Shown here in pieces: positions 2,117 through 19,861 of a DNA stretch of 64,000 bases (the first letter of the stretch is position 1; each line of letters starts with the position of its first letter). A model generated the notes under the pieces. It was given only the letters and a program-made list of their open reading frames with translations, searched no databases and had not been told where the DNA came from. The DNA is from Sphingomonas sp. EC-HK361 (GTDB lineage Bacteria; Pseudomonadota; Alphaproteobacteria; Sphingomonadales; Sphingomonadaceae): positions 1,441,105 to 1,505,104 of the forward strand of contig NZ_LR701494.1 in the NCBI RefSeq assembly GCF_902498785.1, given 5' to 3'. The translations under genes and the position numbers were made by a program.

Positions 2117-2132
2117 TTGACCGGCCGGTCGG
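2117..2132. promoter_or_regulatory. PaaR-type operator upstream of paaR
   Basis: TTGACCGGCCGGTCGG contains the perfect 12-base palindrome GACCGGCCGGTC (2119-2130). It is the most symmetrical of five related sites in this window and sits just upstream of the paaR -35 box, consistent with autoregulation. Confidence 0.65.
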
Positions 2133-2245
2133 CCTCGAGAGGACGGCAGCTGCTGCAAGCGACCAATAGCCATTCCAGACGGGATCGACCGGCCACATGT
2201 GCGCCTTGCCCGATGGCCCCCGTCACCGGACCAGGGCCTTGGCCA

Positions 2246-3037
2246 TCAGCCGCAGGACATTGCCGGCCAGACCGGATCGCGTCGTTCGCGGAAGGCCGCG
2301 ATGCCCTCGGCTTTCTCCGGACCGGCGAGCAGTGCAAGAAAGCGCTGGCGCTCGGCGCAGAGATGCTCGCTCAAGGAACGATCCGCGGCGTCTCTTATGC
2401 TGGCCTTCGCAGCCTTGAGCGCGCGAGGTGCGCGCGAGGCGAGCTTGCTTGCAAGGGTCAGCGCATCGGACAAGGCCTCGCCGTCCCGGGCCAGCCGCGC
2501 GATCAGCCCGAGATCATATGCGCGCCTGGCGTGGATCGGCTCGCCCGTCAGCACCATATCCAGGGCGGCGGCCCGTCCTACGAGGCGCGGCAGGAGCGCA
2601 GTGCCCCCTGCCCCAGGGATGATCCCGAGATTGGTTTCGGGCTGGCCGATCCTGGCATTTTCGGCCGCGACAACGATGTCGCAGCGCAGCATCAGTTCGC
2701 AGCCCGCGCCGAGGCACCAGCCCTCGACCGCCGCCACCAGCGGTTTGGGGAAGCCCGCGATACAGGCCCAGGCGTTCCAGCGCGGCCCGGCGATCGGCTC
2801 CTTTCCGTCGGAGCGCTCCAGTTCCCCAAGATCGGCACCCGCCGCGAATACCTTCTCGTTTCCGGCAAGGACGACACAGCGAATGGTATCATCGTCGGCC
2901 GCGCCCATCAGCTCGCGGGCGATCATCTCGAGCAGAGGCGTCGCGAGAGCGTTGCGGCTTGCCGGCCGGTTGAGGGTCAGCAGCAACACGCCATCGGAAG
3001 GCCGCGACGCGAGCAGCATGGGGGCCTCAGCTGTCAT
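2246..3037 (-). CDS. paaF: 2,3-dehydroadipyl-CoA hydratase (enoyl-CoA hydratase) PaaF
   Basis: A 263-residue crotonase-fold protein. In the phenylacetate pathway PaaF hydrates 2,3-dehydroadipyl-CoA to 3-hydroxyadipyl-CoA in the cytoplasm. Visible family features are the oxyanion-hole segment (AAGADLGELE) and the catalytic region GAGCELMLRCDIVVAAENAR and GIIPGAGGT, with Glu in the expected places. The ATG at 3037 overlaps the end of paaE; an internal ATG at 3019 is an alternative start. It is the last gene of the paaABCDEF unit. Assignment as PaaF rather than PaaG rests on its typical hydratase motifs and on the better PaaG candidate at 10019. Confidence 0.82.
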   Translation of the reverse strand: MTAEAPMLLASRPSDGVLLLTLNRPASRNALATPLLEMIARELMGAADDDTIRCVVLAGNEKVFAAGADLGELERSDGKEPIAGPRWNAWACIAGFPKPLVAAVEGWCLGAGCELMLRCDIVVAAENARIGQPETNLGIIPGAGGTALLPRLVGRAAALDMVLTGEPIHARRAYDLGLIARLARDGEALSDALTLASKLASRAPRALKAAKASIRDAADRSLSEHLCAERQRFLALLAGPEKAEGIAAFRERRDPVWPAMSCG

Positions 3038-4103
3038 AGTCGACAACCACACCCTCGCCGGCCGGGATGGACTGGCAGGTCAGGATGTAACCCTGCTCGA
3101 CTTCCTGCGGGCTCAATCCGTAATTCTTTTTCATGGTGACCTCGCCAGCGACCAGTTTGGCCCGACAGGTCGCGCACACGCCCGCCTTGCACGCATAGGG
3201 CGCAGGGAGTCCGGAGGCCCGGGCGCTCTCGAGGATATTGCCCTTCTCGGCATCGAATTCGATGGCCCGGCGCCGTCCGTCGACACGAACTTCCATCCGC
3301 AGGCCCTGCGCCTTCCGGCGGCTCTCACGATCCGCTTGCCGTTCCGTCTCGCTCTCCTCGCCGGTGGAAAAGCGCTCGGTCAGGACATGTTCCGGCGACA
3401 GGCCCGCGCCCAGCATCGCCAGCTCGGCGGCGTCCATCATGGCACCCGGACCGCAGATGAACGCGACATCGATCGCGGCCGGGTCGACAAGCGAGTCCAG
3501 GACCATGGCGATCCGCGCCTCGTCCAGGCGACCGTTGAACAATTCGATATCGTCGAACTCGCTGGTGAGGAAATGATAGATCTGGAGCCGACCCAGATAG
3601 CGGTCCTTCAGCGCGGCGAGTTCCTCGAGAAACATGATCGAGGAGGAACTCCGATTGCCATAGAGCAGCGTGAAACGACTGTCTTGCTCGATCGCCAGGC
3701 CCGTCCTGATGAGCGAGAGAACCGGCGTGATGCCCGAGCCCGCGGCGAAGGCCAGATAATGATGCCGAGCCTCGGGCTCGAATTTCCAGGTGAAATGGCC
3801 GCGCGGTGCCATCGTTTCGATGATATCGCCCGCCTTCAATGATTGAAGCGCCCAGCCGGAGAAAAGTCCGCCTTCCACCTGCTTGATGGCGACCCGCAGC
3901 GGGCCGTTGCCCGGTGCCGCGCAGATCGAATAGTTGCGGCGCACATCCTGCCCGGCGATTTCCGCGCGGAAAGTCAGATGCTGTCCCGGAAGAAAGGCAA
4001 AGGTCTCGGCAAGCGACGGATCAGGCTCGAGCGTCACCGCGATCGCCTGATCGGTTTCGTGGGCGACGTCCAGGATCTTGAGCGGATGGAAAGCGGTCGA
4101 CAT
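3027..4103 (-). CDS. paaE: Phenylacetyl-CoA epoxidase reductase subunit PaaE
   Basis: A 358-residue reductase that passes electrons from NADPH to the PaaABC oxygenase. Domain order is FAD-binding (about 1-110, with RRNYSICAAP), NAD(P)-binding (about 115-230, FAAGSGITPVLSL) and a C-terminal plant-type 2Fe-2S domain (about 270-358). The cluster ligands appear as CKAGVCATC plus a distal Cys in YILTCQS. Start ATG 4103 has AGGAA upstream; the upstream extension to 4232 overlaps paaD and was rejected. Length matches the family. It lies eight bases after paaD. Confidence 0.94.
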   Translation of the reverse strand: MSTAFHPLKILDVAHETDQAIAVTLEPDPSLAETFAFLPGQHLTFRAEIAGQDVRRNYSICAAPGNGPLRVAIKQVEGGLFSGWALQSLKAGDIIETMAPRGHFTWKFEPEARHHYLAFAAGSGITPVLSLIRTGLAIEQDSRFTLLYGNRSSSSIMFLEELAALKDRYLGRLQIYHFLTSEFDDIELFNGRLDEARIAMVLDSLVDPAAIDVAFICGPGAMMDAAELAMLGAGLSPEHVLTERFSTGEESETERQADRESRRKAQGLRMEVRVDGRRRAIEFDAEKGNILESARASGLPAPYACKAGVCATCRAKLVAGEVTMKKNYGLSPQEVEQGYILTCQSIPAGEGVVVDYDS

Positions 4104-4111
4104 TGGCGTTC

Positions 4112-4615
4112 CTAATGACATTTGAAGCGATCGAACGGTTCTTGGCAGTCGAGGCAGCGCCACAGCGCCTTGCACGGGGTCGATCCGAAACGGCTGACCT
4201 CCTGCGTATGCAGCGATCCGCAGCGGGGACATTCGGCAGGAGAGTCAGCCCGAAGCGATCGCGATCCGGCGCCTTTGGGTGGCGGTGCGATGCCATAGGC
4301 GCGCAGCTTCTCGCGTCCCTCGTCGCTGATCCAGTCGGTCGTCCATGGCGGCGAAAGGACCGTCTTGATCCCCACATCGGCAAAGCCGGCTTCGTCGAGA
4401 GCCGCGCGGACGGATGCCTCGATGACCAGCGTCGCGGGGCAGCCGGTGTAGGTTGGCGTGATGGTCACGACCGGAGGATCGCAACGCACGCCGCGGACGA
4501 TGCCCAGGTCCGTCACCGACACCGCCGGTATCTCCGGATCGGGAACGGTAGCGAGAACCGCCATGATCCGGTCGGCAACGGCATCGTCAAGGACCTCGGA
4601 AACCATGCCGATCAC
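4112..4615 (-). CDS. paaD: Phenylacetyl-CoA epoxidase maturation protein PaaD
   Basis: A 167-residue protein with an N-terminal MIP18/DUF59 domain (DPEIPAVSVTDLGIVRGV; TPTYTGCPA) and a C-terminal zinc-ribbon-like tail with Cys pairs (CPRCGS and CLDC). PaaD is needed for the epoxidase and is thought to help iron-sulfur or di-iron maturation. The frame opens with a GTG at 4615 overlapping the paaC stop as GTGA; an ATG three codons inside (4606) is an alternative start. Translation is probably coupled to paaC. Confidence 0.92.
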   Translation of the reverse strand: MIGMVSEVLDDAVADRIMAVLATVPDPEIPAVSVTDLGIVRGVRCDPPVVTITPTYTGCPATLVIEASVRAALDEAGFADVGIKTVLSPPWTTDWISDEGREKLRAYGIAPPPKGAGSRSLRADSPAECPRCGSLHTQEVSRFGSTPCKALWRCLDCQEPFDRFKCH

Positions 4616-5460
4616 CAGACCGCGTCAGGGTAGGTGCGCGGCAGATACTGCATCGTTGCGAGCAGATGGCCGAGATGCTCGCCATGATGGCCGATCCGGC
4701 CGCCAGTAAGGGCGCGGGGATATTCGGGGAGGGGCAAGGTGGCGTCGCGCAGCACGTTTCCGACGGTCGCGTCGAAACCCTGGCGAAGTTCCGCCCGATC
4801 GACCGCGATACCCGCGCGGGTCAAGGACTGCTCGATCTCATCGCTCTGGAACATCTCGTCAACGAAGCGCCAGAACCAGTCCAGGCCGTCGACCATGCGC
4901 CGCCGGCTTTCCTCGGTACCGTCTCCGAGCCGGACCACCCAGTCGGAGGCAAGCTCGGCATGGTAGCGCACTTCCTTGACCGCCTTGGCGGCAATCTCCG
5001 CGATCCGGTGATCGGACGAGCCGGTCAGTCGTTCGAACAGCGACAGCTGCATGGTGGAAAACAGGAATTGCCGCGCGATGGTCTGCGCGAAATCGCCGTT
5101 CGGTTGCTCGACGAGCAGGCAATTGCGGAAGGCAAGAACATCCCGATGGAAAGCCAGCCTGTCGCCATCGCGGCCCTTTCCCTCCACCTCGCCCGCCAGG
5201 TTGAGGAACAGGCTCGCCTGACCGATCAGGTCGAGACCGATATTGGCGAGGCTGAGGTCGATCTCGAGCGCCGGCGCATGCCCGCACCATTCGGTGAGAC
5301 GCTGACCCAGGATCAGGCTGTCATCGCCAAGGCGCAGAAGATAGTCGAAGAGCGCCCCATGATGCTCGACCGCTTCGCCCGCGTCGAAGCTGCCGCCCGC
5401 CCGCGCCTTTTCGGCATTAGCCACATCGCCCGGCTGGATGGTCGGAAGCGACGGCGCCAT
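4612..5460 (-). CDS. paaC: Phenylacetyl-CoA epoxidase structural subunit PaaC
   Basis: A 282-residue ferritin-like helical protein that pairs with PaaA in the multicomponent epoxidase. Family features include EHHGALFDYLLRLGDDSLIL and DLIGQASLFLNLAGEVEGK. PaaC is the non-catalytic partner that stabilises PaaA in characterised systems. The ATG at 5458-5460 overlaps the paaB stop by one base (TGATG). A GTG directly before it (5463) would add one residue. Part of the paaABCDE unit. Confidence 0.93.
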   Translation of the reverse strand: MAPSLPTIQPGDVANAEKARAGGSFDAGEAVEHHGALFDYLLRLGDDSLILGQRLTEWCGHAPALEIDLSLANIGLDLIGQASLFLNLAGEVEGKGRDGDRLAFHRDVLAFRNCLLVEQPNGDFAQTIARQFLFSTMQLSLFERLTGSSDHRIAEIAAKAVKEVRYHAELASDWVVRLGDGTEESRRRMVDGLDWFWRFVDEMFQSDEIEQSLTRAGIAVDRAELRQGFDATVGNVLRDATLPLPEYPRALTGGRIGHHGEHLGHLLATMQYLPRTYPDAVW

Positions 5461-5744
5461 CACATATGCCCCACGGCGTCTGGGATGTCGTAGAAGGTCG
5501 GATGGCGATAGATCTTCGTCTCCGCCGGCTCGAACATCGGGCCGGACTGGTCCGGGTCGGAAGCGACGATATCGCTCGACTGTACGACCCAGAGGCTGAC
5601 GCCTTCCAGCCGCCGGGTATAGACGTCGCGCGCATGACGCAGGGCAAGTTCCCCATCGGGCGCATGCACCGACCCGACATGCTTATGGCTCAACCCGCCT
5701 TTCGACCGGATGAAGACCTCCCAGAGCGGCCAATCGTGGCTCAT
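5460..5744 (-). CDS. paaB: Phenylacetyl-CoA epoxidase subunit PaaB
   Basis: A 94-residue small subunit bridging the PaaAC heterodimers. The hallmark N-terminus DWPLWEVFIRSKGGLSHKHV and a central HARDVYTRR are present. Start ATG 5744 has AGGAC eight bases upstream. Its length matches the family, and it sits between paaA and paaC as in other bacteria. Confidence 0.95.
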   Translation of the reverse strand: MSHDWPLWEVFIRSKGGLSHKHVGSVHAPDGELALRHARDVYTRRLEGVSLWVVQSSDIVASDPDQSGPMFEPAETKIYRHPTFYDIPDAVGHM

Positions 5745-5777
5745 CAAAATCGTCCTTGTTTATGGTGTCGACAGGTC

Positions 5778-6773
5778 TCAGGCGGCAAGCCGGGCCCGGC
5801 GTTTGGCTTCATGGGCGTCGGCCGCCTCGCGGACCCAGGCGCCCTGCTCCCAGGCGTCGCGTCGGGCTTTCATGCGCTCCCTGGCGGTCGGTCCCTCGCC
5901 GCGAACCACGGCATAGAATTCCTCCCAGTCGATCTCGCCGAAATCATAGCCTTCCTTCTCAGCATTCCAGCGAAGGTCGGGATCGGGGATCGTCAGGCCC
6001 AGGAACTCCGCCTGCGGCACGGTCGCATCGACGAATTTCCGGCGGAGATCGTCATTGCTGTCGCGCTTGATCCGCCAGCGGAAGCCTTGCGCGGAATTGG
6101 GCGAATCCGCGTCGGGCGGACCGAACATCATCAGCGAGGGCCACCACCAGCGGTTGAGCGCGTCCTGTGCCATCGCCTTTTGCTCGGCTGTACCGGCGCC
6201 CAGCGTCATCATGATCTCGTAACCCTGGCGCTGGTGGAAGCTCTCCTCCTTGCAGACGCGGATCATCGCGCGGGCATAGGGACCATAAGACGTGCGCTGC
6301 AACGGCACCTGGTTCATGATCGCGGCGCCGTCGACGAGCCAGCCGATGGCGCCGATATCGGCCCAGGTCAGCGTCGGATAATTGAAGATGGTGCTGTACT
6401 TGGCCTTGCCCGCATGAAGCGCCTCGATCATCTCCTCTCGGCTCGTGCCGAGCGTCTCGGCGGCGCAGTAAAGATAGAGCCCGTGGCCGCCTTCGTCCTG
6501 CACCTTGGCCAGCAGGATCGCCTTGCGTCGCAGCGACGGCGCGCGCGTCAGCCAGTTGCCTTCCGGTAGCATGCCGACAATTTCGGAATGCGCATGCTGC
6601 GAGATCTGGCGCACGAGCGTCCGACGATAAGCCTCGGGCATCCAGTCCTTGGGCTCGATGAATTCGTCCGCGGCCACCCGCGCCTCGAAGGCGGCGACGA
6701 GTTCCGGGTCTTCGGACACGATCGAAACGGGGGCGACCTTACCGCCCTGCTCCTTGAGCTCGGTGGTATACAT
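5778..6773 (-). CDS. paaA: Phenylacetyl-CoA 1,2-epoxidase catalytic subunit PaaA
   Basis: A 331-residue di-iron oxygenase subunit that epoxidises the ring of phenylacetyl-CoA. Candidate iron ligands are visible: Glu64 (AHSEIVG), Glu94 and His97 (QDEGGHG), and Glu177 and His180 (KEESFHQ). Start ATG 6773 has AAGGAG upstream; the longer frame to 6908 reads through the promoter and into paaJ. It is the first gene of the paaABCDEF unit, with its own promoter and a PaaR-type operator. Length is typical. Confidence 0.96.
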
Positions 6774-6800
6774 CGGCTTGCTCCTTCTCAGTACGAATCC

Positions 6801-6829
6801 GGTATATAATTCACCGACCGGACGGTCAA
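6801..6829 (-). promoter_or_regulatory. Promoter and overlapping PaaR-type operator of paaABCDEF
   Basis: On the minus strand TTGACC (6824-6829) and TATACC (6801-6806) are spaced by 17 bases. The imperfect palindrome TTGACCGTCCGGTCGGTG (6812-6829) covers the -35 box and half the spacer, a position where a bound repressor would block RNA polymerase. It lies in the 70-base gap between the paaJ stop and the paaA start. Confidence 0.65.
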
Positions 6830-6843
6830 CTAATTTTGTGCGC

Positions 6844-8046
6844 TCAGACCCGCTCGATGATCGTGGCGATGCCCTGCCCGACGCCGATGCACATCGTGCA
6901 CAGCGCATAGCGGGCGCCGCGGCGCTGGAGCTCCTCGGTGGCGGTCAGCAGGAGGCGCGCGCCCGACATGCCCAGCGGATGACCGAGCGCGATCGCACCA
7001 CCATTCGGGTTCACATGCTCCGCATCGTCGGGCAGGCCGAGCCGGCGCATCACGGCCAGGCCCTGGCTGGCGAAGGCTTCGTTGAGTTCAACAAGATCCA
7101 TGTCGCCGATCGAAAGGCCGAGCCGTGCGAGCAGCTTTTCGGAAGCCGGGGCGGGACCGATCCCCATGATGCGCGGAGGAACGCCCGCAACCGCGCCGCC
7201 CACCACGCGGGCGCGCGGCGTGAGGCCATATTTTGCGGCGGCAGCCTCGCTCGCCACGATGATGGCGGCCGCTCCATCATTCACACCGGATGCATTGCCG
7301 GCGGTGACCGTTCCGTCGGGGCGCACGATAGGTTTCAGCCTGGCGAGCGTTTCGACGCTGGTCTCGCGCGGATGCTCGTCGCGGGTGACAAGCAGAGGAT
7401 CGCCTTTCCTTTGCGGGACCGCGACGGGAACGATCTCGGCATCGAACCGGCCGGACGCCTGGGCCGACGCTGCGCGGCGCTGGCTTTCGGCCGCGAACCG
7501 GTCCTGATCCTCGCGCGTCACGTGGAAATCCTGGGCGACATTCTCCGCGGTCTCCGGCATCGAATCGATACCGAATTGAGCCTTGAGCGCCTTGTTCACG
7601 AACCGCCAGCCGATGGTGGTGTCGTAAACCGCGTTGGACCGCGAAAACGGCCCGTCGGCTTTGGGCATGACGAACGGCGCGCGGGTCATGCTCTCCACCC
7701 CACCTGCGACGATGAACTCTGCTTCGCCCGCCTTGATCGCACGAGCCGCCATTGCGACCGCGTCCATCCCCGAGCCGCACAGGCGGTTGACGGTGGTGCC
7801 CGGGGCCTGCTCGCCGAAACCTCCCAGCAGCGCCGCCATGCGGGCGACATTGCGATTATCTTCGCCTGCCTGGTTGGCGCAGCCGAGAATGACGTCGTCG
7901 AGCGCGGCCCAGTCGACCTTCGGATTGCGCTCGACAAGGGCCCGGATCGGGACTGCGGCAAGGTCGTCGGCGCGCACGCCGGCAAGGCTGCCGCCATAGC
8001 GGCCAACAGGTGTGCGAATCGCGTCGCAGATGAAAGCGTCAGGCAT
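6844..8046 (-). CDS. paaJ: 3-oxoadipyl-CoA / 3-oxo-5,6-dehydrosuberyl-CoA thiolase PaaJ
   Basis: A 400-residue thiolase that cleaves the two beta-ketoacyl-CoA intermediates of the pathway to give acetyl-CoA and succinyl-CoA. Catalytic motifs are all visible: nucleophile Cys in [11 protein letters not shown] (about residue 90), His in [11 protein letters not shown], and the C-terminal Cys in [10 protein letters not shown]. Start ATG 8046 overlaps the end of paaI by eight bases. Last gene of the paaHIJ unit. Confidence 0.93.
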
Positions 8047-8479
8047 CGTCTTGGTTCTCCGATGGCAGGATCGCACCGCCGATGGTGCGGGAAAGGCCGT
8101 GAAAGGACGCGACGGCGCGCCCCTCGCTCGTGCGCACCGTCACCGCATAGGCGCCGCTGCGGCCGGACAGCATGACTTCGCTCGCTTCCGCGATCAGACG
8201 GTCGCCGCGTCTGGCGGGGCCGAGGAAGCTGATCGACGCGGCGTGCGCTACGGTGAAGGCATCGTGGGAGTTGCAGGCATAGGCGAAAGCCTGATCGGCC
8301 AGCGTGAAGATCGCGCCGCCATGGGCGGTTTCATAGCCGTTGAGCATGAAGGCGTTGACGGTGACGGCGATGCGGGCATATCCGGTCCGCACCTCCTCGA
8401 TCTCGATCCCCCACTCGGCGCCCATCGTCTCGCGGGTCCGCAGGAGATCGGTGATCGCTCTGGCTCGCGCATCGCTCAC
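8039..8479 (-). CDS. paaI: Hydroxyphenylacetyl-CoA-type thioesterase PaaI
   Basis: A 146-residue hotdog-fold thioesterase. The PaaI motif [20 protein letters not shown] carries the conserved Asp of the family. PaaI releases CoA from dead-end aryl-CoA products and protects the CoA pool. It overlaps paaH by four bases (ATGA) and paaJ by eight, so the three are surely one transcript. Confidence 0.92.
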
Positions 8480-9918
8480 AGGCGGTCGAGCCCGCGCGAC
8501 GGGGAATAAAGAAGATCGTCCGTGCCGGCAGCGATATGGAGGAGTGTCTGCTTCAGCCTGGCAGGCCCGAAATCGCGGGCCCAGGCCAATGGCCCGCGCG
8601 GATAATTGGCACCGTGGATCATCGCCTCGTCGATGGCGTTGGCCGGCGCGATGCCATCCTCGACGGCATCCGCCGCGCCATTGACGAGCTGCGCCAGGGT
8701 CCGCAGGACGATCTGGCCCGGCCGGTCGGGAAGGAGAAGAAGCCTCTTATCGAGCGCGAAGGCGAGATCCGCGGCGGCCGCAGCCGAACGCTCGTCGCGC
8801 GCCGATGCGATCAGCACCGGCGATATGGCGTGGTCATGAACATGGTCGAGGAGGACGTCCACTTCGCGCCGCTGATCGAGCGTGCGGCCGTCTCCCTTCG
8901 CCACGATGACGCCATCAACCGAAATGCTGCCGGCAGGTATTCCTGTCGCAGGCGAGGTCGACAGCCTCCCGCTCAGCCAGAGAAAGTCCTGCGCGTCCTG
9001 GGCGACGGCGATTTGAGGCGCTGGCCGCTGGCTGGCGGTCGTTTGATCGACCTGCCCGGTTTTCTCGGCGGCTCCATAGTCATAGACCCCCCTGCCCGAC
9101 TTGCGGCCTAGTCGCCCTTCGTCCAGCAGCCGCGCCTGCGCCGGCTGGGGCCGAAACCGCGCGTGCGGGGAAATCCCATCGAAGACCGAGCGGGCGGCCG
9201 CATAGTTCACATCGTGGCCGATCATATCCGCGAGCGTGAGCGGCCCCATCCGGAACCCGCCCCCGCTGCTGATCGCGTCGTCGATCAGCGCGGCTGGAAT
9301 TCCTTCGTCGAGTGCCAGGAAGGCCTCGGCATAGAAGGGCCGCGCCACGCGATTGACGATGAAGCCGGGCACATCCTTCACCGCGACCGCGTGCTTGCCC
9401 CACGCGGCCATGAGGCGGGTCAGCTGCTCGACAACCACAGGGTTGGTCTCTGCCCCCGCGACCACCTCGACGAGCTTCATCGCGGGCACCGGGTTGAAAA
9501 AGTGAAGGCCAGCGAAACGCTCGGGATGGCGCAGGCTGCGCGCCATCTCGGAGATCGAGAGCGAGGAGGTGTTGCTGGCGACGATGGCGTCACGCGCGGC
9601 AAGCGCGCCGAGGTCCGCGAAGAGCCTGTGCTTGACATCGAGGTCTTCGAGCACGGCCTCGATGATCAGGCCCGCGTCCGCGGCATCGCCCAGCTCCTGC
9701 GACCAGCCAATACGTGCTACGATGGTGTCGGCATCGTCCCGATCGAGCCGCGAGCGCGCGACCAGCGCACCGATCGACTTTGCGAGGAGCTGCCGACCGC
9801 GATCGAGAGCGCTCGCGTCGCGGTCAATCACTACCACCTCATGCCCCGCCGTCGCGGCTACCTGGCCTATACCGCTTCCCATCGTGCCCGCGCCGATGAC
9901 CGCAACCTTCCTGTTCAT
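8476..9918 (-). CDS. paaH: 3-hydroxyadipyl-CoA dehydrogenase PaaH
   Basis: A 480-residue NAD-dependent 3-hydroxyacyl-CoA dehydrogenase that converts 3-hydroxyadipyl-CoA to 3-oxoadipyl-CoA. The N-terminal Rossmann motif is KVAVIGAGTMGSGIGQVAA. The catalytic His is in the LHFFNPVPAMKLVEV segment and the C-terminal domain is duplicated, as expected for the long PaaH type. Start ATG 9918 has AAGGAG seven bases upstream; the longer frame to 9966 was rejected. It is divergent from paaG. Confidence 0.92.
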   Translation of the reverse strand: MNRKVAVIGAGTMGSGIGQVAATAGHEVVVIDRDASALDRGRQLLAKSIGALVARSRLDRDDADTIVARIGWSQELGDAADAGLIIEAVLEDLDVKHRLFADLGALAARDAIVASNTSSLSISEMARSLRHPERFAGLHFFNPVPAMKLVEVVAGAETNPVVVEQLTRLMAAWGKHAVAVKDVPGFIVNRVARPFYAEAFLALDEGIPAALIDDAISSGGGFRMGPLTLADMIGHDVNYAAARSVFDGISPHARFRPQPAQARLLDEGRLGRKSGRGVYDYGAAEKTGQVDQTTASQRPAPQIAVAQDAQDFLWLSGRLSTSPATGIPAGSISVDGVIVAKGDGRTLDQRREVDVLLDHVHDHAISPVLIASARDERSAAAAADLAFALDKRLLLLPDRPGQIVLRTLAQLVNGAADAVEDGIAPANAIDEAMIHGANYPRGPLAWARDFGPARLKQTLLHIAAGTDDLLYSPSRGLDRL

Positions 9919-9971
9919 CCGAATCTCCTTGGGGACTTTCCTAACCAGCAATTTCCCGCTTGCCAATAATA

Positions 9972-9989
9972 GTCCGACCGGGCAGTCTA
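9972..9989. promoter_or_regulatory. PaaR-type operator between divergent paaH and paaG
   Basis: Read on the minus strand the site is TAGACTGCCCGGTCGGAC, matching the paaA operator at most positions. It lies in the 100-base gap between the paaH and paaG start codons, so one site could control paaHIJ and paaG-paaZ-paaK at once. A minus-strand -10-like TATTAT lies close by. Confidence 0.55.
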
Positions 9990-10018
9990 TTAAAGAGGAT
10001 GAATCGGAAAGGGCGTTG

Positions 10019-10810: not shown

Positions 10811-10836
10811 ACCAGGAATTCGAGCAAGAGGATTAT

Positions 10837-12873
10837 ATGACGAACTTTCCGATCACCCTGCAGAATTACGCGCTCGATGAGTGGAAGACGGCGGCAGGAG
10901 ACCTGTCCGAGGTGCGTTCCGCGATCACCGGCGAGACGGTCGCGCTTACGGGCAGCCAGGGCCTCGATTTCGAGGCGATGCTCGCACATGGCCGCGACAT
11001 CGGTGGCCCTGCGCTCAGGGCGATGACATTCCACCAGCGCGCCGTCATGATCAAGGCGCTCGCGCAGGCGATCATCGAGCGAAAGGAAGAGCTTTACGAG
11101 ATCTCCTACCAGACAGGCGCGACGCGCACCGACAGCTGGATCGACATCGAGGGCGGCGCGGGAACCCTGTTTACGACGTCATCCAAGGGCAGGCGCGAGC
11201 TCCCCGACGACACGATCCTGATCGATGGCGCCGTGGAGCCGATCGGGAAGCGGGGCACGTTCATCGGCCAGCACGTCTATACATCGCTCCAGGGCGTGGC
11301 CTTGCACATCAACGCCTTCAACTTCCCCGTCTGGGGTATGCTGGAGAAGCTCGGGCCGACCCTGCTCGCAGGCGTTCCGGCCATCGTGAAACCGGCCTCC
11401 TCGACGGGCTATGTCGCCGAAGCGGCCGTGCGCATCATGCTGGACGCCGGGGTTCTGCCGCGCGGCGCGCTGCAGCTCATCATGGGCTCCACCGGCGATC
11501 TGTTCGAACATCTCACCTGCCAGGACGTCGTCTCCTTCACCGGCTCGGCCCAGACCGCGATGAAGCTCCAGTCGCATCCCACGATCGCTCAAGAGTCGGT
11601 CCGCTTCATCGCCGAACGGGATTCACTCAACGCGTCGATCCTCGGTCCCGACGCGACCGCGGATAGCCCCGAGTTCGACCTCTTCATCAAGGAAGTCGTG
11701 CGTGAGATGACCGTAAAGGCCGGTCAGAAATGCACCGCGATCCGGCGCGCCTTCGTGCCGGCCGCCCTGCTCGACGATGCCGAGGCGGCGCTCAAGGCCC
11801 GACTCGCCAAGGTCGTCGTCGGCGATCCGCGGATCGAGGGGGTAACGATGGGAGCGCTCGCCAGCGCCTCGCAATTGGACGATGTGCGCGAGAAGGCACG
11901 CGAACTTGCAACAGAGGCGCGTCTCGCCTTCGGCGCCATCGACAGCGTCGAGGTCACCGGCGATGCGGGCGGGAGCGGCGCCTTCATCTCACCCCTGCTC
12001 TTCCGGGCCGACGATCCCTGGAGTGCCGACCTCATCCACGATGTCGAGGCGTTCGGTCCTGTCTCCACGCTGATGCCTTACAAGGATCTCGACGACGCTG
12101 TCGCGCTCGCCAATCGCGGCAAGGGTAGCCTGGTGCTGTCGGTCTTCACCTATGATCCCGGGATCGCGCGTGCATTCACGCTGGGTGCGGGCGCCTATCA
12201 CGGCCGCGTCATCTTCATCGATCGCGACTGCGCCAGGGAATCGACCGGTCACGGCTCGCCGCTGCCGATGCTGATCCACGGCGGACCCGGCCGTGCCGGC
12301 GGCGGCGAGGAGATGGGCGGCGTTCGTGGCGTGAAGCACTATATGCAACGCACCGCCTTGCAGGGCAGCCCGCGAACGATCTCGGCCATCGTCGGTCAGT
12401 GGCTGCCCGGCGCGCCCAAGCCCAGCGAGGGCGAGCATCCCTTCCGCGTGCGGTTCGACGAACTGGCGATCGGCAAGACCTTCGACACCGCGTCGCGCAC
12501 GATCACGCTCGAGGATATCGAGCATTTCGCGACGTTCACGGGCGACACCTTCTACGCCCATATGGATGAAGAGGCGGCCACGGCGAACCCGTTCTTCCCG
12601 GGCCGTGTGGCGCATGGCTATCTCCTCCTGTCTTTCGCCGCGGGCCTCTTCGTCGATCCGGCGCCCGGGCCCGTGCTGGCCAATACCGGGCTGGACTCGC
12701 TTCGCTTCGTGAAGCCCGTCTCCCCGGGAGAGGCGATCAAGGTCTCGCTGACGGTGAAAGCGAAGACCCGGCGCAACGACGACTATGGCGAGGTCCGCTG
12801 GGCCGTGACCGTCACCGATACGGCGGACGATATAGTCGCCGCCTACGAGTTGCTCACGATGAATGCCTTCTGA
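10837..12873 (+). CDS. paaZ: Bifunctional oxepin-CoA hydrolase / semialdehyde dehydrogenase PaaZ
   Basis: A 678-residue fusion, the full length known for PaaZ. The aldehyde dehydrogenase part covers about residues 1-520, with the nucleophile Cys in AGQKCTAIRR. The C-terminal MaoC-type hotdog hydratase covers about 530-678, with FTGDTFYAHMDEEA carrying the catalytic Asp and His. It opens the oxepin ring and oxidises the resulting semialdehyde. It starts 26 bases after paaG with an AGAGGAT ribosome site. Confidence 0.96.
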   Translation: MTNFPITLQNYALDEWKTAAGDLSEVRSAITGETVALTGSQGLDFEAMLAHGRDIGGPALRAMTFHQRAVMIKALAQAIIERKEELYEISYQTGATRTDSWIDIEGGAGTLFTTSSKGRRELPDDTILIDGAVEPIGKRGTFIGQHVYTSLQGVALHINAFNFPVWGMLEKLGPTLLAGVPAIVKPASSTGYVAEAAVRIMLDAGVLPRGALQLIMGSTGDLFEHLTCQDVVSFTGSAQTAMKLQSHPTIAQESVRFIAERDSLNASILGPDATADSPEFDLFIKEVVREMTVKAGQKCTAIRRAFVPAALLDDAEAALKARLAKVVVGDPRIEGVTMGALASASQLDDVREKARELATEARLAFGAIDSVEVTGDAGGSGAFISPLLFRADDPWSADLIHDVEAFGPVSTLMPYKDLDDAVALANRGKGSLVLSVFTYDPGIARAFTLGAGAYHGRVIFIDRDCARESTGHGSPLPMLIHGGPGRAGGGEEMGGVRGVKHYMQRTALQGSPRTISAIVGQWLPGAPKPSEGEHPFRVRFDELAIGKTFDTASRTITLEDIEHFATFTGDTFYAHMDEEAATANPFFPGRVAHGYLLLSFAAGLFVDPAPGPVLANTGLDSLRFVKPVSPGEAIKVSLTVKAKTRRNDDYGEVRWAVTVTDTADDIVAAYELLTMNAF

Positions 12874-12900
12874 TCTATAAAAGAGGGATGGGAGAGAAAG

Positions 12901-14181
12901 ATGGATTACGGACCCAGGACGCGAGCAGAACTGGAGGCGCTCCAGCTCGAGCGACTGCAATGGTCGGTGGCGCATGCCTATCGCAACGTCGCAAGTTTCC
13001 GGGCAAAGTGCGAGCAGAGGGGCGTGAGCCCGGCCGATATCCGGTCGCTCGCCGACATTGCGCTTTTGCCGTTCACGACCAAGGCGGACTTGCGGGCGGC
13101 CTACCCGTTCGGAATGTTCGCGGTGCCCCAGGAGCAGGTCTCGCGCGTGCATGCCTCGTCCGGAACGACCGGTCGCCCCACCGTCGTCGGATATACCGCC
13201 AACGATATCAAGACCTGGTCTAGCCTGATCGCGCGCTGCATCCATGCCGCGGGCGGACGGCCTGGCATGAAGGCGCATATCGCCTATGGCTACGGCCTCT
13301 TCACAGGCGGTCTGGGCGCCCACTATGGAGCCGAAGCGCTCGGATGCACCGTCATTCCGATGTCCGGGGGCCAGACCGAAAAACAGGTCCAGCTCATCGA
13401 GGACTTCAAGCCCGAGATCATCATGGTCACGCCGAGCTATATGCTCTGTATCCTCGACGAATATCGCAAGCAGGGCCTCGATCCGCGCGCGACGTCGCTG
13501 CGCTATGGGATTTTCGGCGCGGAGCCCTGGACCGAAGCAATGCGGCGCGAGATCGAGGAGGCGTTCGACATCCGGGCAAGCGACATCTACGGCCTTTCCG
13601 AAGTCATGGGACCGGGCGTTGCCCAGGAGATCGCGGGAACGTCCGGCCCGACCATCTGGGAAGATCATTTCCTCCCCGAGATCGTGGATCCCGAGACCGG
13701 AGAAGTGCTTCCAGACGGCGAGGAAGGCGAGCTCGTCTTCACGTCGCTCACGAAGGAGGCACTGCCGATCATCCGCTACCGCACCCGCGATCTTACCCGC
13801 TTGTTGCCGGGCGAGGGGCTTCCCTATCGGCGTATCGCCAAGATCGTCGGCCGAAGCGACGACATGCTGATCATTCGTGGCGTGAACGTCTTCCCCACGC
13901 AAATCGAAGAACAGGTTCTCAAATGCCCGGGTCTGGCGCCCCATTTCCTCATCGAAATCAGCCGGCCTTCGCGAATGGACGAGGTGCTGATCGAAGTCGA
14001 GCCGCGCGGCGACCTCGACCATGAAGCGAGCGCCGCCCAATGCCGGCTGCTTGCATCCTACGTGAAGGATGTCATCGGCGTCACGGCGCGTATCAACCTG
14101 AGGCGGATCGGAGATATTCCGCGATCCACCGGCAAGGCGTCGCATGTTCGCGATCTGAGGCTCCAGGCGCTGAGCGCGTGA
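12901..14181 (+). CDS. paaK: Phenylacetate-CoA ligase PaaK
   Basis: A 426-residue adenylate-forming ligase that activates phenylacetate with ATP and CoA. The ATP-binding loop is VHASSGTTGRPTVVGYT, the adenine-binding region IYGLSEVMGPGVAQE, and the hinge with the C-terminal domain is near GRSDDMLIIRGVNVFPTQIE. Start ATG 12901 has GGGAGAG upstream. It joins the styrene upper pathway, whose end product is phenylacetate, to the Paa pathway. Confidence 0.96.
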   Translation: MDYGPRTRAELEALQLERLQWSVAHAYRNVASFRAKCEQRGVSPADIRSLADIALLPFTTKADLRAAYPFGMFAVPQEQVSRVHASSGTTGRPTVVGYTANDIKTWSSLIARCIHAAGGRPGMKAHIAYGYGLFTGGLGAHYGAEALGCTVIPMSGGQTEKQVQLIEDFKPEIIMVTPSYMLCILDEYRKQGLDPRATSLRYGIFGAEPWTEAMRREIEEAFDIRASDIYGLSEVMGPGVAQEIAGTSGPTIWEDHFLPEIVDPETGEVLPDGEEGELVFTSLTKEALPIIRYRTRDLTRLLPGEGLPYRRIAKIVGRSDDMLIIRGVNVFPTQIEEQVLKCPGLAPHFLIEISRPSRMDEVLIEVEPRGDLDHEASAAQCRLLASYVKDVIGVTARINLRRIGDIPRSTGKASHVRDLRLQALSA

Positions 14182-14200
14182 ATTCCCTCGCCTCTGACCG

Positions 14201-14938
14201 ATGAAGGACGAAGCACCGATAGCTGCCGCGACCCTGATCGTCATGCGTGACGGGCCGACCGCTCCCGAGCTGCTAATGGTCGAACGTGCCGCAGGATTGC
14301 GTTTCGCAGGCGGCGCGGTCGCCTTTCCCGGCGGGCGGATCGAGCCGGTAGATTACGCCTCTGCCAATCACTCGCTCGACGCCGCGAAGGTCGCCGCGAT
14401 CCGCGAGACGGCGGAAGAAACGGGCATCCTGATAGCGGCCGAGCCCAGGCCGTGCGAACAGGCCATGTTCGAGATCGGCGTGGAGCTTCGCGCCGGTCGT
14501 TCCCTATCTGCCATTCTGGCGGAGCGGAACGTCAGGCTCGCGATCGCAACCCTCGTCCCGTTTGCGCGCTGGTGCCCGGTGGGTCTCGAGAAACGTCCCT
14601 TCGACACGCATTTTTTTCTCGCCCGCGCGCCGGAGGCTCTACCGCTCCCGATCGCTGACGGCTCGGAGATTTCGCGTGTCTTCTGGACGAGTGCGAAGGC
14701 TTTGCTCGACGGCGCGGATCAGGGGACGACGAAGCTTATGTTCCCGACCCGCCGCAATGTCGAGCGACTGGCACATTTCGGAAACATCGCTGAGGCCTGC
14801 GAAGATGCCGCCCAGCGTCCGATCGGCATGGTGAGCCCCTGGATCGAAGATCGTGGAGGCATTCCGCATCTCTGCATTCCGGAAAATCTTGGGTATCCGG
14901 TGACGGCTGAACCTCTCGACAAGGCGATACTCGGCTAA
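14201..14938 (+). CDS. NUDIX hydrolase with an expanded Nudix box
   Basis: A 245-residue NUDIX protein. The box begins FPGGRIEP and ends with RETAEETGIL, but about ten extra residues (roughly VDYASANHSL) sit in the middle. This resembles the NUDT19/RP2 group, whose eukaryotic members cleave CoA and acyl-CoA to phosphopantetheine compounds. It follows paaK by 19 bases on the same strand, so it is probably co-transcribed. A role in trimming stalled CoA thioesters is an inference from context; another nucleotide diphosphate substrate is possible. Confidence 0.82.
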   Translation: MKDEAPIAAATLIVMRDGPTAPELLMVERAAGLRFAGGAVAFPGGRIEPVDYASANHSLDAAKVAAIRETAEETGILIAAEPRPCEQAMFEIGVELRAGRSLSAILAERNVRLAIATLVPFARWCPVGLEKRPFDTHFFLARAPEALPLPIADGSEISRVFWTSAKALLDGADQGTTKLMFPTRRNVERLAHFGNIAEACEDAAQRPIGMVSPWIEDRGGIPHLCIPENLGYPVTAEPLDKAILG

Positions 14939-15000
14939 CCAGGCCACAGGCATCGACCGTCGCCGCCGCGCAGCGACAGCCGATGCAGGCCTGCGATCCA

Positions 15001-16503
15001 TTAATAGGCGATGCAGACCGATTTCACCTCGGTGTAGGGATCGAGCGACCGGACGCCGAAGTCCCTACCGATGCCGGATTCCTTGAATCCGCCAAACGGC
15101 ATGTTCGGATCGATCAGATTATGGCAGTTCACCCACACCGTTCCGGCCTTGATCCGAGACGTGAGCTCCATCGTCTTCTTCAGATCGTTGGTCCAGAGCG
15201 AGGCGGCCAGGCCCATGTCGCTGTCGTTGGCGAGCCTGATCGCTTCGTCCTCGCTGTCGAAGGGCGTCACGGTCACCAGCGGGCCGAACACTTCCTGGCG
15301 CGAGATGGCAAGATCCGCCCCCGCATCCACCACGATGGTCGGCCGCACATAATAGCCTGGCAGATCGGGCCGGTCGCCGCCCGCCACGATCCTGGCGCCA
15401 TCTTCCCGAGCCTTGCTGACATGATCCAGGATCTTCTGGCGATGACCCGCCGAAACGACCGGGTTGATCTGGGCTGCGGGATCGAGTCCCGGCCCGATCG
15501 CCATGCCGTCGACCGCGGTCGCAAGCGCTTTCACGAAGGGCTCGTATATGTCGCGTGCCACATAAAGTCGCGACGAGGCCGCGCAAACCTGGCCATTGTT
15601 GAAAAAGCCGCCGAGGATAGCGCCCTGCACCGCTTTCTCGATCGGCGCGTCGGCGAGGAAGATCGCCGGATTCTTTCCACCGAGCTCGAGCGAGGTCCGC
15701 AGCATCCGCTCGGCTGCGCTTCGTGCGATCGCCTTTCCGGTCGCGGTCGATCCGGTGAAACTGATCTTCGACACGAGAGGATGATCGACCAGGGCCTTTC
15801 CGGCGCGGCCGTCGCCGGTCACGAGATTGAGGACGCCATCGGGCAGGCCTGCTTCCCGGCCGAGTTCGACAAGGCGGATACTTGTCAGGGGTGTGAGCTC
15901 GGATGGCTTGAGGACGACCGTGCAGCCCGCTGCGAGTGCCGGCATGATCTTCCAGAGCCCGATCATCATCGGAAAGTTCCACGGCGAGATCGCGCCGACC
16001 ACGCCGATGGGCTCGCGCCGCGTCGAGGCATTGTACCGGCCGCCCGGAATCGCACCAATCGAGACATCGAAAGTTTCGCCGGTCACCTTGGTCGCCAGGC
16101 CCGCGATATAGCGCATATAGGACGGAGCACCGCCAATATCGACGTAGCGGGAGATGTTGATGGACTTGCCCTGGTTGAGGGTTTCCAGCTGGGCCAGCGC
16201 CTCGGCATTCTGTTCGACCAGATCCGCAAATTTCAACAGCAGCCGCTCGCGCTCCGCCGGGGCAAGCGCTGACCAGGCGCCGCTCTCGAAGGCCGCATGG
16301 GCGCTGCGCACCGCGTCGTCGACATCCTGAGCGTTGGCGTTGACGACAGACGCGATCCGCTCGCCTGTCGCCGGGTTATAGACGTCGATCCGGTCGCTAC
16401 TGCGCGCTTCGCGCCAGGACCCGTCGATGAACAGGCCATGCTCGGTGCCCAGGAAGGCGGTGACGTCGTTGAGGGGGGTCACGATATTGGAAGCAGTTGC
16501 CAT
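15001..16503 (-). CDS. styD: Phenylacetaldehyde dehydrogenase StyD
   Basis: A 500-residue aldehyde dehydrogenase. The general-base Glu is in TSLELGGKNPAIFL and the nucleophile Cys in NNGQVCAASSRLYV; the NAD fold includes SFTGSTATGKAI. It belongs to the StyD/FeaB/betaine aldehyde dehydrogenase class. Next to styABC and paaK, oxidation of phenylacetaldehyde to phenylacetate is the evident job. Start ATG 16503 has AGGAGAG upstream. It is second in a unit with the EthD-domain gene, convergent with the NUDIX gene. Confidence 0.9.
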   Translation of the reverse strand: MATASNIVTPLNDVTAFLGTEHGLFIDGSWREARSSDRIDVYNPATGERIASVVNANAQDVDDAVRSAHAAFESGAWSALAPAERERLLLKFADLVEQNAEALAQLETLNQGKSINISRYVDIGGAPSYMRYIAGLATKVTGETFDVSIGAIPGGRYNASTRREPIGVVGAISPWNFPMMIGLWKIMPALAAGCTVVLKPSELTPLTSIRLVELGREAGLPDGVLNLVTGDGRAGKALVDHPLVSKISFTGSTATGKAIARSAAERMLRTSLELGGKNPAIFLADAPIEKAVQGAILGGFFNNGQVCAASSRLYVARDIYEPFVKALATAVDGMAIGPGLDPAAQINPVVSAGHRQKILDHVSKAREDGARIVAGGDRPDLPGYYVRPTIVVDAGADLAISRQEVFGPLVTVTPFDSEDEAIRLANDSDMGLAASLWTNDLKKTMELTSRIKAGTVWVNCHNLIDPNMPFGGFKESGIGRDFGVRSLDPYTEVKSVCIAY

Positions 16504-16537
16504 ATCTCTCTCCTGTATATCTTGCCGGTGATACCGG

Positions 16538-16843
16538 TCAGAGCGCGAGGGTTTCTCCCGTCATCACGGTCACAAGCTTGCCCGCGAAGTCCATGGCGTC
16601 CTTCCCGCACGCTGCGTTTTCCGGACTCTTGAGCGCCGCCGCCAATGCGGCGTCATCCGCAAAGCTCATTTCCGCCAAGAGGAAGACACCCTCTTCTCCG
16701 ACCAGCGTCCTGCTGATCCGGGTAATGGCAACGTCGACGAGGCCGGGCAACGCGCGCACCAGCGGCATATGCACCTCGCGATAATGCCGCAGGAACTCCT
16801 CGGCGTCCTCCGGGGCCCGATAAAGGGCAAGCATCTTCTTCAT
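16538..16843 (-). CDS. EthD-domain protein (dimeric alpha-beta barrel)
   Basis: A 101-residue protein of the EthD family. The domain signature appears as RAPEDAEEFLRHYREVHMPL followed by VRALPGLVDVAI. Such ferredoxin-fold proteins often accompany oxygenases or aromatic pathways, as accessory or small-ring enzymes. Start ATG 16843 with GGGAGAG upstream was chosen over 16909, which would cover the operator. It is first in a unit with styD, 34 bases apart. Its reaction is unknown. Confidence 0.85.
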   Translation of the reverse strand: MKKMLALYRAPEDAEEFLRHYREVHMPLVRALPGLVDVAITRISRTLVGEEGVFLLAEMSFADDAALAAALKSPENAACGKDAMDFAGKLVTVMTGETLAL

Positions 16844-16887
16844 GGCGTCTCTCCCGTCTTTTTGCATGCTGACGACATTAATAGCAT

Positions 16888-16905
16888 GAACGGTCAGACG
16901 GCTAA
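16888..16905. promoter_or_regulatory. PaaR-type operator upstream of the EthD-styD unit
   Basis: On the minus strand the site reads TTAGCCGTCTGACCGTTC, a weaker relative of the paaA operator. A -10-like TATTAA follows TTAGCC after 16 bases, so the site overlaps the presumed -35 box, as at paaA. Confidence 0.5.
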
Positions 16906-16946
16906 TCACAAGCGTTATGGCATCGTCACGGCAAAATCAATTGATG

Positions 16947-17915
16947 TCAGATCGGGATCGGCTCGTCCGGACGCACGAAATGTGGCTGCGGCCTCGCAAG
17001 CGCAGGGTCGATGCGGGCGAGCAGGTCACGGCTCTGCATCATCCGCGCCGCCGCGAAATCGATGAAGGCCCTCGCCCGCCGCGAAGGGTAGCGCGATTGG
17101 GGGTAGACGATGCTGACTGCGATCGACGGTAGGAAATAGTCCCGCAACAGAATCTGGAGCGCCCCGCGCTCGAAACCCTCGACCGCCAGCCATGCCGGCA
17201 CGATCGCGACGCAATGGCCACCCATCGCGGCTTCAAAGGCTGTGTCGTCGCTGTTGGTGATGAAGCGTCCACTGACCTTGATGGCCTGCCGGCCGTTCTC
17301 CGAATCGAATGCGAGGACGCCGTCTGCCATCCACGGCGCGCACGCCACTTCATGGTCTTCAAGATCGATAGCGGTCTCTGGGATACCGTTGCGGGAGAGA
17401 TACTCGGGCGAGGCCACGACAAGCCATTCGAAGCGCCTGACTGTCCGCACGATAAGCGGACCTTCCGAGGGCGCGTCCGTCACCACCGCGAGTTCGAAAC
17501 CGCCGGCGGCCAGGTCCGGCTCCTGCTCTGCCACGATAAGATCGACCGAGACCAGCGGATTGAGCTCGAGGAATGTGTGGACCAGCGGCCGCACGAGACA
17601 CCGCCCCAGCGTGTGCGGCACCGCGATCTTCAAAAGTCCGCTCGCTTCCGGCTGCTGCCCGTGCACGACGGCATGGGCCATTTCGGCCGCATCGAGCATG
17701 CGGTGGACATGTTCATGGATCCGCTCGGCCTCAGCCGTCGGCCGAATCTGGCGAGTCGTTCGATGGAAGAGCTGGATACCGAACTCCTTTTCGAGCGCTG
17801 CGATATGCTTGCTGACAGTCGACTGAGCGATGCCAAGCTGCCGCCCGACCGCGGAAAAGGAGCCGAGCTCCATCATTTTCGAAAAAGCGGCGTAGGCTTC
17901 GAGGCGGTCTGTCAT
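16947..17915 (-). CDS. LysR-family regulator next to styA (CrgA-like group)
   Basis: A 322-residue LysR-type regulator. The HTH is FSAVGRQLGIAQSTVSKHIA near residues 20-40, followed by ALEKEFGIQLFHRTTRQIRPT. The ATG at 17915 gives the usual family start (MTDRLEAYAAFSKMMELGSF); the frame to 18068 runs into styA and was rejected. Divergent from styA by 118 bases, it is the only pathway-specific candidate regulator of the styrene genes in the window. Pseudomonas instead uses the StyS-StyR two-component system, which is absent here. Whether it activates or represses is unknown. Confidence 0.88.
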   Translation of the reverse strand: MTDRLEAYAAFSKMMELGSFSAVGRQLGIAQSTVSKHIAALEKEFGIQLFHRTTRQIRPTAEAERIHEHVHRMLDAAEMAHAVVHGQQPEASGLLKIAVPHTLGRCLVRPLVHTFLELNPLVSVDLIVAEQEPDLAAGGFELAVVTDAPSEGPLIVRTVRRFEWLVVASPEYLSRNGIPETAIDLEDHEVACAPWMADGVLAFDSENGRQAIKVSGRFITNSDDTAFEAAMGGHCVAIVPAWLAVEGFERGALQILLRDYFLPSIAVSIVYPQSRYPSRRARAFIDFAAARMMQSRDLLARIDPALARPQPHFVRPDEPIPI

Positions 17916-17918
17916 ACC

Positions 17919-17934
17919 TATTCCATATGGAATA
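17919..17934. promoter_or_regulatory. Perfect 16-base palindrome at the LysR gene start
   Basis: TATTCCATATGGAATA is a perfect inverted repeat four bases upstream of the LysR-type gene's ATG, in the lysR-styA divergent gap. It has the size of a LysR-type binding half-region and is unlike the PaaR-type sites. It may serve autoregulation or activation of styA. Confidence 0.5.
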
Positions 17935-17964
17935 TATACTAGCACGAACAGGCGATTTACGCCT

Positions 17965-17982
17965 GAACGCTCGGTCGGTAAA
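17965..17982. promoter_or_regulatory. PaaR-type operator and promoter region of styA
   Basis: GAACGCTCGGTCGGTAAA is the inverted form of the shared palindrome (TTTACCGACCGAGCGTTC on the other strand). A plus-strand promoter TTTACG (17957-17962), 17-base spacer, TAAATA (17980-17985) overlaps it. It is about 50 bases upstream of styA and would place the styrene operon under the same repressor as paa. Confidence 0.5.
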
Positions 17983-18033
17983 TAGGATGAAACAAAATAA
18001 GCAATTCCCGACCATCCGCGAAAGGAAGAGGAT

Positions 18034-19360: not shown

Positions 19361-19861
19361 ATGTCCGTAACCGATGACATATTTCGCAGAGCTCTGTCCT
19401 GCCTCGCGGCCGGCGTGAGCATCGTATCCACCCAGCGTGATGGGGACCGGCGGGGAGTGACCGCAACTGCCGTCTGCTCGGTCTCGGCGTCGCCGCCTAC
19501 CATCCTCGCCTGTGTGAACACCGCGACCGGAACGTGTCAGATGATCAGGGAAACCGGCCTGTTCGCGGTCAATCTGCTGGCTCAGCATCATCAGCCGGTA
19601 GCGGAAGTGTTCGCGGGCCGGAGCGGCCTGCAGGGTGACGACCGGTTCGAGCATGGTGATTGGACGGCGGGCGATGTCCACGGGCTGCCGATCCTCCAGA
19701 CGGCACTTGCAGCGATCGAATGCCGAGTCGACCATCAGGTGCAGGCCGGCACCCATGTCGTATTCTTCGGCGTCATACAGGGCGTTTATTTTGCGGACCA
19801 TCCGCCGTTGCTGTTTCACGGCGGACGCTTCCACGCGCTTCCGGTCGCTGCCGCCGCCTGA
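19361..19861 (+). CDS. styB: Styrene monooxygenase flavin reductase StyB
   Basis: A 166-residue flavin reductase of the HpaC/StyB type that supplies reduced FAD to StyA. Features are the FRRALSCLAAGVSIVSTQRD start, GVTATAVCSVSASPPTIL and a terminal ADHPPLLFHGGRFHAL. Start ATG 19361 has GGGGAGA upstream. It lies 58 bases after styA on the same strand. Confidence 0.93.
   Translation: MSVTDDIFRRALSCLAAGVSIVSTQRDGDRRGVTATAVCSVSASPPTILACVNTATGTCQMIRETGLFAVNLLAQHHQPVAEVFAGRSGLQGDDRFEHGDWTAGDVHGLPILQTALAAIECRVDHQVQAGTHVVFFGVIQGVYFADHPPLLFHGGRFHALPVAAAA

Follow-up and report, generated by a model that had tools for sequence, protein, structure and literature searches.

A PaaR-type operator at the styA promoter of a Sphingomonas styrene-phenylacetate cluster suggests control by two inputs

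What decides whether a cell begins to oxidise styrene when the genes for the lower pathway lie next door? The question is raised by a 64,000-nucleotide stretch of Sphingomonas sp. EC-HK361 (contig NZ_LR701494.1, positions 1,441,105 to 1,505,104; hereafter the window), in which a phenylacetate (paa) cluster running from paaR (1436–2041, minus strand) through paaK (12901–14181, plus strand) is followed in order by styD and ethD (minus), a LysR-type regulator gene (minus) and then styA-styB-styC-ompW (plus) from 18034. An earlier note on this DNA had read five related palindromes as sites of a single TetR-family repressor that releases on phenylacetyl-coenzyme A (phenylacetyl-CoA), so that the styrene genes would be induced by a lower-pathway product rather than by the sensing of styrene. 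Here we argue for a different circuit, to which we assign a probability of roughly 70%: the promoter of styA (styrene monooxygenase, 18034–19302, plus; NCBIfam StyMonoxStyA 714.8 bits, cut-off 550) would take two inputs, activation by the divergent LysR-type protein on an upper-pathway signal and repression by PaaR until phenylacetyl-CoA appears.

Because circularity had to be avoided, a palindromic motif was learned de novo from other genomes only, with the window excluded, using 41 regions upstream of paaG, paaA and paaR in 17 stretches from 15 other genomes of the family; no styA match was seen in any of these training genomes. In three of the stretches (L084, L085 and L087) paaA and paaG are divergent neighbours, so that one site was counted from both sides. 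The best motif read nGACCGnnCGGTCn at width 14 and TTGACCGACCGGTCGGTCAA at width 20, with log-likelihood ratios of 137.6–225.9 depending on width versus 22.0–29.4 for shuffled regions (one base-shuffled set per width, with fewer starts). The 20-mer contains ACCGACCGGTCGGT, the PaaR operator of Burkholderia cenocepacia, which is described in PMC2770484 as mutation-tested and as a dual overlapping inverted repeat lying between −10 and −35.

Scanning the window with this motif put the same four sites at the top of the 16-mer and 20-mer lists, namely those upstream of paaR (2117–2132; 16-mer score 20.07, rank 1), upstream of paaA (6810–6829; 19.39, rank 2), in the inferred styA promoter spacer (17963–17978; 17.55, rank 3) and between the divergent paaH and paaG (9970–9989; 14.93, rank 4). 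With the 20-mer the order became paaA, paaH/paaG, styA and paaR (ranks 1 to 4), and with the 14-mer paaR, paaA and styA held ranks 1 to 3 and paaH/paaG rank 8. The fifth site, upstream of ethD-styD (16886–16905), is a doubtful palindrome-like sequence that ranked 13th with the 16-mer (10.51), 9th with the 20-mer and 10th with the 14-mer; the estimated chance of an equally good match in a region of the same length was 0.012–0.018 for this site and 0.005 for styA. Checked on the letters of the window, all five sequences stood where the earlier note had located them, all lay outside genes as it had said (as annotated here, with the ethD start at the ATG at 16843 and the paaR start at 2041), and the paaR site contained the perfect 12-bp palindrome reported for it (GACCGGCCGGTC). 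Its grouping fared less well: four of the five sites stand out, and its view that both sty-side sites are weaker applies to the ethD-styD site and not to styA, which was third at every width.

The loose pattern GACCGNCCGGTC, with up to two mismatches, matched the window 102 times versus 58.9 expected, and in the nearest genome (G001) each strand had 24 exact copies of GACCGNNCGGTC versus 17 of a reversed control. Loose GACCG-N2-CGGTC matches were rejected as sites, since the reversed control has nearly as many. Because loose matches lack specificity, the significance of the operators rests on the longer motif, on position and on conservation.

The putative repressor is encoded inside the paa cluster itself. 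The 201-residue paaR product matches Pfam TetR_N (59.4 bits) and TetR_C_24 (78.8 bits), both above cut-off; its 21 NCBIfam matches include no PaaR model, the best being to the SACE_7040 family (85.9 bits, cut-off 250). Among 149 genomes of the family, a PaaR match (E ≤ 1e-40) was found in 14 and a PaaA match (E ≤ 1e-100) in 15, with both in 13. The site before paaA (5778–6773, minus, in the window) was present in all 12 training genomes that have PaaR and PaaA (20-mer scores 17.3 to 28.7) and in neither of two genomes that have PaaA without a PaaR match (−3.9 and −8.6; 230 bases scored), a comparison in which the genomes belonged to the training set and the PaaR-less ones were treated alike. 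An operator before paaR is not general: in other genomes, 3 of 13 regions upstream of paaR reached a 16-mer score of 13, and for the TetR genes of YR768, AP50 and Donghicola no strong site was seen in the nearby upstream DNA. In the window, a consensus scan placed the paaR operator 7 bp upstream of a promoter-like TTGAGA-16-GATAAT on the minus strand and the paaH/paaG operator across a promoter-like TTAATA-16-TATTAT, also on the minus strand. These comparisons support a TetR regulator of the PaaR kind whose operators lie at the paa promoters, together with a matching operator at styA; PaaR would then occupy one kind of site at paaR, paaA, paaH/paaG and styA. To that extent, for these four sites, the one-repressor proposal survives. 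Separately, one further genome (G423, stretch L088) has no PaaA match at E ≤ 1e-100 and yet carries a PaaR-like TetR gene preceded by a good operator (20-mer score 19.6).

Conservation at styA was examined in loci from genome contigs, from plasmids and from whole-genome searches; the searches for StyA returned only G001 among 396 genomes of the order, five among 385 of the class, three among 394 of the Donghicola family (one of them at the coordinates of the La6 plasmid) and nine matching plasmid records, four of which were fetched. Left out of the promoter counts were L031 and L044 (the window cluster), L131 and L132 (the La6 and Donghicola loci again), L038 (which starts inside styA) and L043 (upstream region unscored), and L133–L137 were used through the larger stretches L145–L149. 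A strong styA site was found in seven of the nine alphaproteobacterial promoters whose StyA is at least 67% identical, and a degenerate copy in the other two. In the window, Sphingobium AP50, Sphingobium YR768, Donghicola, Phaeobacter P88 and Marinibacterium La6, the styA site was the 1st to 4th best distinct site at all three widths, and the sites that outranked it precede paaA, paaG with paaH or paaI, paaJ/pcaF, paaK or the TetR gene (in YR768 some 217 bp separate the paaK-side site from paaK). None of 1000 scrambled palindromic matrices ranked the styA promoters as highly across these six loci, at any of the three widths; this permutation test covered the first six loci only, and the other three were found after the matrix had been fixed. 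In one of the three, G1207, the styA site scored 13.8 and took the second raw rank in a 5.4-kb contig. The core half-site bases are kept between Sphingobium and Rhodobacterales, and the flanks diverge.

Since GACCG-N2-CGGTC is a simple motif and these genomes have other TetR genes, the styA site might be used by a different TetR-family protein. We consider this quite unlikely, as one matrix marks both the paa and the styA promoters in each of the six loci and a PaaR-like TetR gene accompanies the cluster, either inside it or adjacent to it, in the window, P88, La6 and Donghicola; in G1207 such a gene and the locus share one small contig. A natural control comes from gammaproteobacterial genomes: a PaaR relative (E ≤ 1e-15) was found in three of three alphaproteobacterial genomes tested and in none of four gammaproteobacterial metagenome-assembled genomes, whose styA promoters have no site. 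None of the nine best matches in the four gammaproteobacterial stretches whose upstream DNA could be used (L034, L036, L037 and L040), and none of the eight best in Pseudomonas VLB120, fell at the styA promoter; among actinobacterial stretches, L041 and L042 had no match close to styA, and the one in L115, some 150 bp ahead of the gene, was weak (9.8). In an uncultured Mycobacterium (L039), two of the four best 16-mer matches, at 9761–9776 (13.1) and 9625–9640 (12.5), lie 225–376 bp upstream of styA, the best of all being 225–240 bp before the gene; a separate occurrence of the same PaaR-styA coupling is possible there.

The second input is suggested by the other side of the same intergenic region. 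LysR-type regulators have boxes that are palindromes with the form T-N11-A, located between divergent genes. The candidate box TATTCCATATGGAATA (17919–17934), between the LysR-type gene (16947–17915, minus; assigned by Pfam) and styA, has this form and is the sole 10/10 match to TATTC-N6-GAATA in the 64 kb. The single best box match fell at the same place in AP50, YR768 and Donghicola (9, 10 and 9 of 10), P88 and La6 had 8/10 matches of a kind present 3 and 7 times in their loci, and in the gammaproteobacterial, Pseudomonas and actinobacterial loci the best match was at most 7/10 and common. The distance between the centres of box and operator was nearly fixed across nine loci (44, 44, 44, 42, 42, 42, 44, 44 and 45 bp), and that between box and styA ranged over 93–119 bp in the first six loci. 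The template for the box came from the window, and the last three loci match it at only 7/10, possibly off by one base. Downstream of the box, a core promoter was placed by eye at 17956–17984 on the plus strand, with TTTACG (17956–17961), a 17-nt spacer and TAAATA (17979–17984), within a block, ATTTACGCCTGAMCGCKCGGTCGRTAAATAG, that is common to the three sequences grouped as Sphingobium (the window, AP50 and YR768). The LysR-type protein would bind its box about 64 bp upstream of the presumed transcription start (near 17991) and activate styA when it senses an upper-pathway compound, be it styrene, styrene oxide or phenylacetaldehyde. PaaR would bind CTGAACGCTCGGTCGG (17963–17978) between the putative −35 and −10, blocking transcription until it is released by phenylacetyl-CoA, with which the CoA intermediates of the lower pathway begin.

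Could the LysR-type protein control styA by itself, the PaaR-like sequence being a chance occurrence or a promoter feature? All 11 alphaproteobacterial styA-type loci examined have a LysR gene facing styA, and two of them (StyA 53–54% identical) have no PaaR operator there, so the gene is shared throughout and the operator is not; moreover, promoter elements could explain part of the conserved block. We nevertheless regard this as unlikely and rejected LysR as the sole explanation on the six-locus ranking by an independently trained motif and on the scrambled-matrix test, and the conservation of the core half-sites between Sphingobium and Rhodobacterales while the flanks differ also speaks against it.

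Several observations weigh against a two-input styA promoter. The window operator has one imperfect half (TGAACG for TGACCG), and the consensus scan reported no sigma-70-type promoter at styA, although this would be as expected for a weak promoter that requires an activator. Sites of equal score exist elsewhere: in G001, 19 distinct places outside the paa-sty cluster scored above 14 in one width among 60 pattern-matched loci that were scored (a smaller set than a full matrix scan would give). All 19 fall within stop-to-stop frames of at least 196 aa, which is weak evidence because such frames abound in G+C-rich DNA. Two genomes, G1035 and G1131, carry the degenerate styA operator TTGAATAGCCATTCGG, which lies in the same place, 44 bp from the LysR box, scored 7.4 and took raw ranks of 15 and 10 in about 19 kb; both keep PaaR-like TetRs nonetheless. 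G869 and G663, the two StyA-like loci at 53–54% identity, have no operator at styA, though TetR matches are present (27% identity in G869, 31% in G663). The Rhodobacterales TetRs are only 30–34% identical to the PaaR of the window, and the TetR gene was not shown near the sty genes in AP50, YR768, G1035 and G1131. Nor are the loci independent draws, because the Sphingobium promoters share ancestry and the Rhodobacterales ones likewise.

The earlier reading, in which PaaR alone controls styA and styD and the upper pathway is induced only by the lower-pathway product, draws on the operator at styA and on the site before ethD-styD, and it passed over the divergent LysR gene and its candidate box, whose conservation and near-fixed distance count against it. 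In AP50, YR768, Donghicola, P88 and La6, the stretches upstream of styD or ethD gave a best 16-mer score of 6.5 or less in seven of seven cases. With a weak score in the window and no counterpart in these seven stretches, the ethD-styD site was not accepted as a firm member of the regulon; the two-input explanation is unaffected by this question because it rests on styA only. G1035 and G1131 add a point in favour of PaaR alone: each has two good sites between divergent paaK and styD (20-mer scores 16.8 and 16.6, and 19.7 and 16.6), the one nearer styD reading TTGACCGGCCGTCCGGTTTT in both, and PaaR control of styD is plausible in these two genomes from the sites found. As they combine a degenerate styA operator with good paaK-styD sites, PaaR control has possibly shifted from styA to styD. 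The intervals concerned are L145 4841–4979 and L146 13332–13433, and in YR768 styD begins 113 bp after paaK, behind a strong site. Also weighing against PaaR alone is a review in which phenylacetic acid is reported as no important sty inducer in seven strains, Sphingopyxis and Sphingobium among them (PMC5874493), and we hold this explanation to be very unlikely; the claim of product induction in place of styrene sensing is not upheld.

The two-input model accommodates poor induction by phenylacetic acid because release of PaaR would be needed but insufficient. A weak modulating role for PaaR at styA would fit the same report equally well. If the AND-type logic of the two-input promoter holds, styrene would be oxidised at full rate only with the lower pathway running, and the build-up of styrene oxide and phenylacetaldehyde should therefore be limited. 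Both of these compounds are toxic, and gating the first oxidation on a working lower pathway would be a sensible design given such intermediates. It might also explain the poor induction of sty genes by phenylacetic acid on its own, and it would offer a testable promoter for biosensors and biocatalysis. Going further, we lean slightly towards a joint picture in which the alphaproteobacterial LysR box and PaaR operator, about four helical turns apart, form a two-key lock (substrate and CoA-thioester) that arose independently of the PaaX/StyR promoter and moves on plasmids together with the pathway, its PaaR key having perhaps passed from styA to styD in G1035 and G1131.

The remaining genes of the window were assigned mainly from profiles. 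Phenylacetaldehyde dehydrogenase (styD, 15001–16503, minus) had the StyD model as its best NCBIfam match, under cut-off (663.4 bits, cut-off 850); the flavin reductase styB (19361–19861, plus) was assigned at family level only (StyB model 88.4, under the cut-off of 200); and the styrene-oxide isomerase styC (19901–20443, plus) matched StyOxIsoStyC at 214.4 bits (cut-off 150). The EthD family reductase gene ethD (16538–16843, minus) was assigned from profile matches. EthD-family genes resembling it were seen within or adjoining the paa operons of other genomes (L083, L086 and L032), so the ethD of the window may have its role in phenylacetate metabolism and not in that of styrene. Immediately downstream of the styrene genes, at 21558–24650, several short open reading frames resemble, by eye, fragments of insertion-sequence transposases, and mobile elements may have shaped the window. 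The nearest genome, G001, has 41% of sampled words in common with the window; on its contig 27 the paaR site, the paaA site and styA stand at the window coordinates plus 22912, and because the paaI to ompW proteins of its stretch L031 are 100% identical to those of the window, it provides no independent evidence.

Coupling of styA to the lower pathway through a repressor has a precedent in Pseudomonas sp. Y2, where PaaX represses PstyA (del Peso-Santos et al. 2006, as cited in PMC2442086). As described there, the phenylacetyl-CoA-responsive repressor that governs the lower pathway also represses styA, in addition to the action of a pathway-specific regulator; the window resembles this in the operator at styA, by motif only. 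Unlike in Y2, where the proteins are a GntR-type PaaX and the two-component system StyS/StyR, the window has a TetR-type PaaR and a LysR protein; a LysR gene, not StyS/StyR, adjoins styA, and StyS/StyR precede styA in Pseudomonas VLB120. Pfam PaaX had no match in G001, AP50, YR768, G1207 or the P88 plasmid. It matched in Donghicola and the La6 plasmid, in both beside the sty cluster, and more weakly, above cut-off, in G1035 and G1131. On the La6 plasmid (L113 12135–12992) paaX lies directly behind the styA-facing LysR gene, and the cluster carries a PaaR-like TetR gene as well; a 2026 survey reports that PaaX and PaaR co-occur in some groups (PMC13186573).

Among PaaR systems, that of B. cenocepacia is similar in being a TetR repressor of paa genes with an operator of the same type, and according to a review PaaR is freed from its target sites by phenylacetyl-CoA and not by phenylacetic acid (PMC9493321), a release that we infer for the window; unlike the window, the PaaR regulon as described for B. 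cenocepacia includes no styrene promoter (PMC2770484, PMC9493321). Thermus thermophilus PaaR (TTHA0973) is likewise a TetR-type protein that represses paa operons and responds to phenylacetyl-CoA, and its site is a palindrome of 14 bp, although that site reads AACnAACGTTnGTT and the accounts of it describe no styrene genes (PMC6651687, PMC9493321). Sphingopyxis fribergensis Kp5.2 shares with the window a proposed LysR regulator in its sty cluster, an upstream styD and adjoining phenylacetate genes, but its account in PMC5874493 adds a histidine kinase and gives no operator or link to PaaR. No paper linking PaaR to styA was found in the open-access literature searched, from which subscription journals mostly fall outside; in the single open-access paper containing both 'PaaR' and 'styrene monooxygenase' (PMC8423941), 'paar' was part of an instrument maker's name. 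Repressor coupling of styA to the lower pathway is thus known from Pseudomonas, and what appears to be new here is that unrelated proteins, a TetR-type PaaR and a LysR-type regulator, would do the work; if so, TetR-PaaR with LysR and GntR-PaaX with StyS/StyR would represent convergent evolution of one circuit.

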